DNA of 54,789 bases. Source: Calothrix sp. FI2-JRJ7 (GTDB lineage: Bacteria > Cyanobacteriota > Cyanobacteriia > Cyanobacteriales > Nostocaceae). The stretch lies in contig JAHHGX010000025.1 in the NCBI GenBank assembly GCA_019359675.1, positions 1 through 54,789 of the forward strand, in the 5' to 3' direction. The position numbers were made by a program, and so were the translations under genes. Every line of letters starts with the position of its first letter. Positions within the stretch are counted from its first letter, which is position 1. Positions 49,085 through 54,789 of this stretch are shown in pieces. The notes beneath the pieces are model-generated. The model was given only the letters and a program-made list of their open reading frames with translations, did no database searches and was not told the DNA's origin.

Positions 49085-50100
49085 CTACATAGCTGCTATT
49101 GGTTGTTCTTGACGTACTCGTTGCCCAGTAATAATCATTTTTACTCCATTAGCAGGCGCCAGTGTAATTCCGCGACGCTGGGGTTTTTCATTTGCAGCAG
49201 GCAACTTCATCTCATAGCGTGAGAGAATAGTAGCCATAACCAACTTCATTTCAAACATTGCTAATGCATCACCAATGCAACGACGGGCGCCAGCTCCAAA
49301 AGGCATAAATTCATACTGTGAATACTGCCGTTCTAAAAAACGCTCTGGTCTGAATTGGTTAGAATTTGGGTATAAATCTTCTCTATGATGTAAAAGATAT
49401 ATACAACCTCCTACCCGTGTACCTGGTTCTAGTGATTGTTCTAAAATTTCAACAGGTTCTTGGACTACTCTACTAAAAGTTAACATTGCTACAGGGTGAA
49501 TGCGTAAAGTCTCATTACAAAAAGCACCCAAATAGGGTAGCCTGAAAATATCCATTGGGTCTGGAGAGTTACCTAAACAGTCTACTTCTTGTAATAATTT
49601 TTTCTGAACTTCAGGCAAATAGTGACTCCAATACAAACCCCAAGCCATTGCTGTTGCTGTAGTTTCATGTCCGACAAATAGGAGAGTTAGTAACTCATCC
49701 CGTAATTCTTCGTCAGTCATTGGGTCGCCATTTTCATCGCGTGCTTGCATTAGTAAAGAAAAAATATCAACACCTTGCTCACTTTGTTTAGATGAGCGAC
49801 GCTCAGAAATTTCAGCGTAGAGTAACTCATCTATTTGCCGACGCTGACGCAAAAAATACCCCAAGGACTCCAGGCGCCTAAATCTTGGCGTAAAATTGCG
49901 TAAAGGAGAAAGGCAGAACTCAAAGGTGAGCTAAAAACATTTAGCATCGTTCTTAGTAGCTGCTTTATTTTTTGGAAACGTTCTCCCTCATATAGCCCAA
50001 AAACAGTTTGTAAGATAACTTCCAAAGAAATTTGCTGCGTGACTCGATGAGCCACGAAAGGTGTGTTAATAGTTATTTGGCTTAAAACTTCTTCTGGTTT
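49085..50100 (-). pseudogene. Cytochrome P450, frameshifted and 5' truncated
   Basis: The C-terminal portion is well preserved: I-helix LLFVGHETTATAMAW, K-helix ETLRIHPVA, FRPERFLERQ and the haem loop FMPFGAGARRCIGDALAMFE with its Cys. A frameshift near 49860 (run GGGGTATTTTTT) separates it from the upstream part (TPFVAHRVTQQISLEVILQT). The N-terminal third is gone: at about 50100 the sequence changes to the remnant of a reverse transcriptase on the other strand. The gene resembles the fragment at 1762-1986. It cannot make a functional P450. Confidence 0.9.
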
Positions 50101-50507
50101 TGACCACTTCATCAAAGAAAAGCTCAAAGCTAGTAAATATGTTCGTTATGTCGATGATTTTGCCTTATTTTCAGATGTATAGAGAGTTTTTAGCAGAAGC
50201 AAGACAGGCAATGGAAGAATACTTAGCAAGTCTCAGACTAATACTGCACCCTGCCAAAAGCCAACTATTTGAAACCCGTCATGGAGCAAACTTCTTAGGA
50301 TTTTGCATACTCCCAGATAGAATTAGGGTGCGAACCGAGAACCTACGACGCGCGAAGCGAAGATTAAAAAGGCTTAAGGCTGAGTATGAGGAGGGTAAAA
50401 TTGAGCTAGAACAAATATCTCACTCCATTAGAAGTTGGATAGCTCATTTAAAACATGGGGATACCTGGCGCCTGCGTACAAAGATTTTTGAAGATTTTGC
50501 ATTATAG
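50097..50507 (+). pseudogene. Diversity-generating retroelement reverse transcriptase, C-terminal remnant
   Basis: The sequence first reads FDHFIKEKLKASKYVRYVDD, continuing FALFSDV, then a stop; a one-base frame change recovers REFLAEARQAMEEYLASLRL, LHPAKSQLFETRHGANFLGF and RVRTENLRRAKRRLKRLKAE, ending SIRSWIAHLKHGDTWRLRTK. The YVDD box is the catalytic motif, and the C-terminal part matches RTs of diversity-generating retroelements rather than group II introns, which have YADD and a maturase domain. About 200 N-terminal residues are missing at the junction with the P450 gene. It is inactive as it stands. A template-repeat-like sequence follows 66 bases downstream. Confidence 0.8.
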
Positions 50508-50573
50508 ATTTCCAATGAACAGGCATTCTTGCCTGTCCTACCAAGAAATTGAACATGGGGTGGGCACTCTTTG

Positions 50574-50708
50574 ATGCTGCGCGGCGGTTCGTGGAACAAC
50601 AATCCTCAAAACTGTCGTTCGGCGTATCGCAACTACAACAACAACGACAACAACGTTGGTTTTCGGGTTGTGGTTGGTGGAGCGAGCGCTCTTCTACTCG
50701 TGAGTTAG
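50574..50708 (+). other. Template-repeat-like sequence of a diversity-generating retroelement
   Basis: The sequence would translate as [20 protein letters not shown] followed by [20 protein letters not shown]. This is the C-terminal variable region of formylglycine-generating-enzyme-like (C-type lectin fold) target proteins. The codons at variable positions are almost all AAC, as expected of a template repeat, in which adenines direct mutagenesis. No target gene body is attached upstream, so this is the TR, not a VR. It lies just downstream of the RT remnant, the normal place. Confidence 0.8.
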
Positions 50709-50857
50709 CAGATGGGAATTTGTTAGGAGAGATAAAAAGAAGAGTCCAGAACCTGCTCCAGTGTGTTGGTGACAATATTGCGAATATAAAGCTTAGTTGG
50801 GCAGCTTGGTAAGTATTTTTGCTGAACAGTTGCCCGACTAATAATAATTCACACGTA

Positions 50858-50931: not shown

Positions 50932-51007
50932 AATAATTGTAGGTTAGGTGGAGTCGCCTCGGTTCCCAACTACAAATTTTTAGAAAACTCTAAGGTCATA
51001 AAAGTAT

Positions 51008-51124
51008 TTAAGCAAAAGTAATCAAAAATTTAATAGCTTCAGCCCTATCCTGAAATATTGCATGAATAAGATCACCATTATTGTAACGAATATCAACCTC
51101 ATACTTTAGAATAGGCGCCATCAT
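51008..51124 (-). pseudogene. Short frame of unknown origin (possible gene remnant)
   Basis: A 38-residue frame reads MMAPILKYEVDIRYNNGDLI and HAIFQDRAEAIKFLITFA. It looks like coding sequence (alternating beta pattern, then an amphipathic helix), but its upstream side ends in the GTGCGTGACGC repeat at 51141-51206, so it is probably the tail of an interrupted gene. I do not recognise the family. It may or may not belong to the restriction-enzyme remnant beyond the repeat. Confidence 0.4.
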
Positions 51125-51140
51125 AGTCACTTCGACGCGA

Positions 51141-51206
51141 GTCGGTGCGTGACGCTACAAGTCCTATAACTACGTTGAAGTTTTTTCGTAGCGTCACGCA
51201 CCCTAC
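51141..51206. repeat. GTGCGTGACGC inverted repeat
   Basis: GGTGCGTGACGCTAC and GTAGCGTCACGCACCCTAC flank a spacer with AACTACGTTGAAG. It is the inverse copy of the element at 29633-29698. It interrupts the restriction-enzyme-like frame. Confidence 0.9.
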
Positions 51207-51309
51207 TTTTTTCATGTGCCAAAGCTACTTCTTGAAGGGTTTCGCGAATGAACTCTTGGATAAGATTTCCAATAATTTGCCCCCATTTATGTGAATATGA
51301 TTCTGTCAT
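51207..51309 (-). pseudogene. Restriction endonuclease-like N-terminal remnant
   Basis: The frame begins MTESYSHKWGQIIGNLIQEF and IRETLQEVALAHE, then runs into the repeat at 51141-51206, where homologous-looking sequence ends. The start resembles N-termini of type II restriction enzymes encoded beside adenine methyltransferases (SYSHKWGQIIG), and a methyltransferase remnant lies directly upstream on the same strand. The assignment is tentative and based on memory of the pattern plus context. Confidence 0.5.
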
Positions 51310-51318
51310 AAAGCCTTT

Positions 51319-51530
51319 TCAATTACCCATCAACCCATAAATAACCCTCACAAAGAGGAACTTGATGCTTACGATTTTTCCATTTAACGTTACGGTTGCG
51401 AATTTTTTAAACTCAAAAGATTTAAATCCTGCACTACAAGCTAATAATCCTAGCCACTCAATAACAGGAATATAAATACCATAGGGGGCAGAATCTCCAA
51501 TTACAAAATAAATCTTTGCATTGTGAATTT
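51319..51530 (-). pseudogene. DNA adenine methyltransferase C-terminal remnant
   Basis: The first part reads YFVIGDSAPYGIYIPVIEWL and GLLACSAGFKSFEF. After a one-base frame change it continues KIRNRNVKWKNRKHQVPLCE and GYLWVDG, then stop. The NVKWKNRKHxVPLxEG end is characteristic of a group of site-specific adenine methyltransferases. The catalytic and AdoMet motifs are missing, cut off by a dispersed repeat at 51534-51565. The gene is frameshifted, truncated and non-functional. It overlaps in context with the restriction-enzyme-like remnant. Confidence 0.65.
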
Positions 51531-51533
51531 TGT

Positions 51534-51565
51534 GTAGGGACGGGCAAGGATGCCCATCCCACAAG
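51534..51565. repeat. GGGCAAGGATGCCC repeat
   Basis: GTAGGGACGGGCAAGGATGC followed by CCATCCCACAAG, next to the stop codon of the metallophosphoesterase gene and at the broken end of the methyltransferase remnant. Confidence 0.85.

Positions 51566-54671: not shown

Positions 54672-54789
<118 letters not shown>

Follow-up and report, generated by a model that had tools for sequence, protein, structure and literature searches.

The window, the whole stretch of 54,789 nucleotides that was analysed, is contig 25 of the genome of Calothrix sp. FI2-JRJ7 (G000 in our survey), a draft of 8.66 Mb in 91 contigs with a completeness of 99.92%. In it the remains of a cytochrome P450 gene adjoin the C-terminal part of a reverse transcriptase (RT), which is followed by the template repeat (TR) of a diversity-generating retroelement (DGR). 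The features are given below; VRs are sequences that match a TR except at adenine positions, and the relatives named are Calothrix strains NIES-4105, PCC 7103 and HK-06 NIES-2101 (G003, G005 and G006, respectively).

49085..50094, minus strand: cytochrome P450 pseudogene, 5'-truncated and frame-split, forming the left side of the deletion junction
50094..50096, no strand: predicted deletion junction, from the blastn end points (P450 homology to 50094, RT homology from 50096)
50096..50507, plus strand: remaining C-terminal part of a DGR reverse transcriptase (about residues 223-358), with a frameshift near 50179
50573..50693 (about), plus strand: TR, adenine-rich and well kept; the same stretch matches the VRs of NIES-4105, PCC 7103 and HK-06 NIES-2101
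50685..50790, plus strand: 3' segment downstream of the TR, predicted to be part of the DGR RNA and conserved in relatives

The P450 model of Pfam matches 49085-49864 with 2e-63 and, below the cut-off, 49831-50127 (0.015). The fragment is 91.6% identical to the 462-aa P450 frame of PCC 7103. About 136 C-terminal residues of the RT remain; in the 358-residue RT of PCC 7103 they correspond to residues 223-358. Upstream of the frameshift near 50179 one frame reads ...GFDHFIKEKLKASKYVRYVDDFALFSD, and downstream the other frame continues with REFLAEARQAMEEYL...HPAKSQLFETRHGANFLGF...WIAHLKHGDTWRLRTKIFEDFAL to a stop at 50507. A profile of the RTs of the three relatives matches 50121-50504 with E 8.7e-69 and 50093-50194 with E 9.1e-12. 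The remnant keeps the YVDD motif, while the N-terminal ~222 residues including motif 4 are gone. The description of this RT as frameshifted and 5' truncated in an initial annotation could thus be confirmed, with the first ~62% missing. Matches to other RT classes are weak: PADLOC, which showed no DGR model, returned three matches, all to weak DRT models (best RT_UG17, 1.5e-7), and the NCBIfam group II model matches far under its cut-off (2.1e-5).

At the DNA level the RT tail is 92.5-94.6% identical to those of NIES-4105, PCC 7103 and HK-06 NIES-2101. Against these relatives dN amounts to 0.016-0.028 and dS to 0.17-0.33, giving a dN/dS of about 0.07-0.10. This is comparable to the same region among the relatives themselves (dN 0.024-0.030, dS 0.31-0.34), and the break of the gene is therefore probably recent.

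In translation the adenine-rich TR stretch corresponds to the end of an FGE/C-type-lectin domain. Its density of AAC codons, nine per 28 codons, was rejected as stand-alone evidence, being not beyond chance: another place in the window reaches eight per 28 codons, and the case for a DGR consequently rests on homology. Thirteen loci possessing RT, avd, FGE and TR share 88 invariant columns in this region, and the TR plus 3' segment of the window retain 87 of them. The earlier description of the TR as intact holds true in this respect, but the TRs of its four relatives in the genus are 3 bases longer. Positions 50685-50760 (76 bases) are 94.7-97.4% identical to three relatives, and the same range applies to the TR plus these 76 bases, apart from the 3-base gap in the TR. 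At least 35 bases are missing from the spacer between RT and TR. For the predicted fold of 50571-50790 a z value of -2.28 was obtained, and 6 of 200 shuffled sequences were as stable.

Further to the right, remnants of two neighbour genes that are longer in relatives are located at 50968-51564 (minus strand). The pieces correspond to an unnamed 287-aa protein (NIES-4105) and to the end of an N6/N4 DNA methylase (PCC 7103), and perhaps represent a decayed restriction-modification pair. The contig ends with the start of a 16S rRNA gene (54672-54789, plus strand).

The complete element in related genomes

The RT tail and TR were used as query in a DNA search of a survey set of 150 genomes including the own one. 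Matches were obtained in 78 of the 150 (the own genome counted in both numbers), among them four of the six other genomes of the genus. A search of a named genome collection with the RT tail returned four loci, belonging to Calothrix sp. HK-06 NIES-2101 (96%), NIES-4105 (94%), PCC 7103 (94%) and a Cyanomargarita MAG (64%).

Comparison of the locus across strains revealed that the three Calothrix relatives carry an AAA ATPase, an FGE-domain target with VR, avd, RT and TR. In PCC 7103 the order is P450 (462 aa), CHAT-EAD1, iSTAND, AAA ATPase (MoxR-like), vWA-FGE target, avd, RT, TR, DNA methylase and a phosphoesterase homologue. The ATPase matches AAA_5, with the bpMoxR model just below the cut-off, and the protein with vWA and FGE domains ends in the VR. 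The avd gene is recognised by NCBIfam NF033474 above the cut-off (1.8e-37) and by Pfam bAvd (1.4e-15). NIES-4105 and HK-06 NIES-2101 show the same avd-RT-TR arrangement with different FGE target proteins. In the present assembly of HK-06 NIES-2101 the target frame ends ahead of its VR, and the NIES-4105 frame is shifted at its end by a one-base gap within the VR, so that of the three relatives only PCC 7103 has an uninterrupted target frame.

Local TR/VR pairs were found in all three relatives with the locus. Mismatches affect 15 of 29 adenine positions in HK-06 NIES-2101, 8 of 29 in PCC 7103 and 12 of 24 in NIES-4105 (3, 0 and 4 gap columns, respectively), and not a single non-adenine position (0/84, 0/84 and 0/85). 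When a VR is compared with the TR of another strain, 1 to 8 non-adenine mismatches appear. Each pair hence shares strain-specific non-adenine letters, as is characteristic of TR-to-VR copying.

The RTs of all three relatives contain VGNLTSQ and YVDD; the VGNLTSQ region belongs to the part lost in the window. Motifs of this GxxxSQ type are described as typical of DGR RTs in a passage of PMC3521204. Against the group II intron RT family the RT of PCC 7103 reaches 139 bits at a cut-off of 300, and it has GxxxSQ where a group II RT would combine QGxxxSP with a score above the cut-off. All its matches to the retron/Drt models of NCBIfam are below cut-off. PADLOC, for which no cut-offs are shown, matched it with 89 models, the best being generic RT (2.8e-49), followed by RT_UG17 (1.9e-37). 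Among solved structures, a relative's RT is best matched by 8ub7 with E 5.9e-56, and the next is a group II RT (2e-17). The entry 8ub7 is itself labelled reverse transcriptase; we take it to be the DGR RT of BPP-1. To the brt protein of BPP-1 the RT of PCC 7103 is 35.1% identical over 97%. From these sequence comparisons the RT of the relatives is assigned to the DGR type. The initial annotation had named two observations that would speak against its proposal, namely the lack of any VR-like match and RT homologues grouping with group II introns or retrons. The former was indeed made within the own genome (see below); the latter was not, since the RT homologues are DGR RTs.

Homology of the window to PCC 7103 is confined to both sides of a gap. 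Compared with PCC 7103 the block missing at the junction measures 9,475 bp, and compared with NIES-4105 it measures 11,033 bp. Both flanks are syntenic with these two strains, which places the remnant at an orthologous position. With HK-06 NIES-2101 only the right flank can be compared, because its contig of 10.6 kb ends before the P450 gene. Between 50094 and 50096 homology switches from P450 to RT, in agreement with the proposed interruption of the P450 gene at the left end of the element. The pattern argues for one deletion that fused the truncated P450 gene to the RT tail. With homologous DGR parts at the same place in relatives and adenine-specific differences between their TRs and VRs, the assignment of RT tail and TR as the remains of a DGR is well founded.

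Partners in the own genome and orphan template repeats

The suggestion that the TR could still serve a remote target with the help of another RT in trans found no support in the 8.66-Mb genome, where no VR, avd or other RT of DGR type was detected. A blastn search with 50000-50800 against the whole own genome returned only the query itself; a similar search with 50110-50720 recovered the local VRs in all three relatives. Adenine-freed patterns with up to 3 mismatches, and a pattern of the constant end, matched only the TR in the own genome. The adenine-freed pattern is not fully sensitive, as it found two of the three known local VRs in the relatives and missed one with an indel. It also detected two remote VR-like sites in NIES-4105. 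These are the ends of FGE genes at C1:10780825 (L075) and C1:9604861 (L076), which match the TR pattern of the genus with 1-2 mismatches. The gene at C1:10780825 is a putative fusion to a nucleoside-phosphorylase-like N-terminus.

The best match of the avd profile in the own genome had E 0.48 and contained a stop. A profile search revealed no second RT of DGR type besides the window, and two RT matches of other kinds. Both were rejected as helpers. The RT on contig C38 carries the motif QGGVCSP, and the group II model scores it at 277.5, below the cut-off of 300. The RT on C7 is matched over its full length by the PADLOC model RT_UG35 with 1077 bits, yet possesses a GxxxSQ-like stretch (GRGISQ). 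The latter gene (C7:4356-7766, L066) encodes a 1018-aa protein with an RT domain, a defence RT of UG35 type.

Five FGE domain matches were found in the own genome, and each was rejected as a VR of this TR. The second FGE of contig 14 is nearest, with mismatches at 10 of 85 non-adenine positions (25 gap columns). The first FGE of the same contig has 18/84 such mismatches, that of C67 25/82, and that of C79 17/65 with 63 gap columns. The FGE of C65 did not align (22 non-adenine bases placed). None of the five FGE ends is a recent copy of this TR. Since these searches returned no VR, avd, DGR-type RT or near FGE copy, a working trans system is unlikely.

Contig 14 appears to be a second former DGR locus. 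It contains trypsin-iSTAND, AAA ATPase, vWA and two FGE genes, and neither RT nor avd was found there by tblastn at 0.01. At related loci of HK-06 NIES-2101 (C13) and of a further genome, G004 (C6), avd and a DGR-type RT lie between two FGE genes. Up to the VR, the first FGE gene of contig 14 (L077:7491-7900) resembles the VR region of HK-06 NIES-2101 (79% over bases 1-233 of 410); from the VR on, it resembles the sequence around and after the TR (84% over 98-410). The same picture is obtained with G004 (69% over 1-231, 81% over 140-410). In the simplest reading for this one genome, recombination between VR and TR as direct repeats apparently removed avd and RT.

TRs without a local full RT were also encountered in related genomes. 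At the window's locus in G004 (C13, L044) a TR is accompanied by only the last 15 residues of the RT and adjoins an IS200/IS605 insertion and an AAA ATPase fragment. This genome has a DGR-type RT elsewhere, and no other site in it matches its own TR pattern. G028 (L081, L082) and G053 (L084) hold TR and 3' segment without a full RT nearby; G053 retains the last 37 RT residues. Of the 88 invariant columns of the TR segment, 87 are kept in G000, 82 and 81 in G028, and 88 in G053. A profile search at 1e-10 gave no RT match in G028 and a single one in G053 (1.8e-12, covering part of the model and lacking the SQ motif), so that, the window's stub aside, no RT of DGR type was returned for G000, G028 and G053. 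A possible further orphan TR is present in G059 (L083), which has two full-length DGR RTs elsewhere. A pattern search in G004, G028, G053 and G059 yielded 10 sites, three of which are the orphan TRs already noted for G028 and G053. An extra decay of the RT stub of G053 relative to its TR was considered and rejected, because the RT tail is about as similar to its relatives as intact ones are. The orphan loci of G028 (two), G053 and G059 are four of 14 retrieved loci and were picked for their missing full RT, the other ten having RT, avd and FGE. As TRs were part of the query, these numbers allow no inference on how often TRs outlive RTs.

History of the locus and known systems

Most likely, the locus is an inert and recent relic. 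With high confidence we regard it as the right-hand end of a former DGR, the rest of which was lost by deletion, leaving the TR as a relic without function. The role of the former element would have been to vary the C-type-lectin/FGE end of a protein belonging to a MoxR-type conflict system. Going by known DGR biology and the pattern of TR/VR differences, in the relatives the TR would be transcribed and copied by RT and Avd with errors at adenines, and the cDNA would then take the place of the VR, which lies at the target gene's 3' end. The synteny with PCC 7103 and NIES-4105 shows that a single deletion took the 5' region of P450, the genes that the relatives have between P450 and RT (the target with its VR, avd and the conflict-system genes) and the initial ~62% of the RT. 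A frameshift broke the leftover RT part. We infer that the TR is now inert, the absence of RT, Avd and VR holding within the limits of the searches. That the loss is recent is suggested by the low dN/dS of the RT tail (about 0.07-0.10) and the little changed TR.

The good conservation of TR and 3' segment (87/88) is also what continued use would produce, with an RT acting in trans and copying the TR into a remote VR. Remote targets of cyanobacterial DGRs are reported in a section of PMC7517822, two remote VR-like sites occur in NIES-4105, and under the looser remote-target rule given there (50% nucleotide identity) the FGE gene of C14 could qualify. We nevertheless consider this use very unlikely, because VR, avd and DGR-type RT were not found in the own genome and the nearest FGE end (C14) shows 10/85 non-adenine mismatches where the relatives' own pairs show zero. 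Because the genome is a draft of 91 contigs, a gene not found here may fall into a gap. The draft state also bears on the idea that unrelated loci were wrongly joined at 50094-50096 in a strain that has an intact DGR. Such an artefact is hardly to be expected: the junction lies inside the contig, both flanks are syntenic with PCC 7103 and NIES-4105, the P450 fragment is frame-split, the RT tail frameshifted and the neighbour genes are decayed too, and no further piece of this RT or of avd turned up in the own genome.

The weak match of the group II model to the RT tail (2.1e-5) could be taken to indicate a group II intron or retron RT remnant beside a stray FGE gene end. There is next to no probability left for this, since the relatives have avd, the SQ motif and TR/VR pairs with mismatches at adenines only, and the three pairs already refute it. 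Moreover, the TR is preceded by the end of an RT, not by FGE coding sequence, and followed by the conserved segment. TRs without a local full RT recur (G000, G004, twice in G028, G053, perhaps G059), which would fit the thought that TR and 3' RNA segment are kept for an RNA role independent of RT, or await a regained RT; we regard this as improbable.

The locus documents the loss of a targeted-mutation system with its template left behind, in a genus where relatives retain the system. Together with contig 14 it suggests simple routes of DGR loss, by long deletion versus recombination between two repeats. For annotators it is a caution that a TR-like sequence by itself does not imply an active DGR. 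The DGR of Bordetella phage BPP-1 has a homologous RT (35.1% identity over 97% of the PCC 7103 RT). It is phage-borne and functional, with a different target and gene order.

Degraded DGRs have been described before. The parts of the literature considered here report RTs that were inactivated while their repeats stayed intact (PMC3521204), a remnant made up of the RT only and a TR-VR relic lacking the RT (PMC7517822), as well as DGR loci in which RT or TR was replaced or deleted (PMC10907252). The window is therefore one more decayed member. As far as these excerpts go, it shares with the published cases an RT lost or broken, apparently recently, and a repeat kept without random decay. It differs in its composition: the published examples comprise broken RTs with TR/VR, RT alone, a VR relic lacking the RT, or target-bearing loci whose RT gene was replaced or deleted, and the window instead consists of a TR and an RT stub, with no VR found. 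In a literature search with partial coverage, based on titles and abstract openings, no work devoted to orphan TRs or to VR x TR recombination was recognised.

Passages of PMC10907252 and PMC7159879 describe DGRs of cyanobacteria that have FGE/C-type-lectin targets and are linked to MoxR-vWA ternary conflict systems. The locus of PCC 7103 likewise has a MoxR-like AAA ATPase, a vWA-FGE target with VR, iSTAND, CHAT-EAD1, avd, RT and TR, and NIES-4105 and HK-06 NIES-2101 share FGE targets with avd, RT and TR. The window differs in lacking target, avd, conflict genes and the initial ~62% of the RT, and what it preserves is the tail of the same element.
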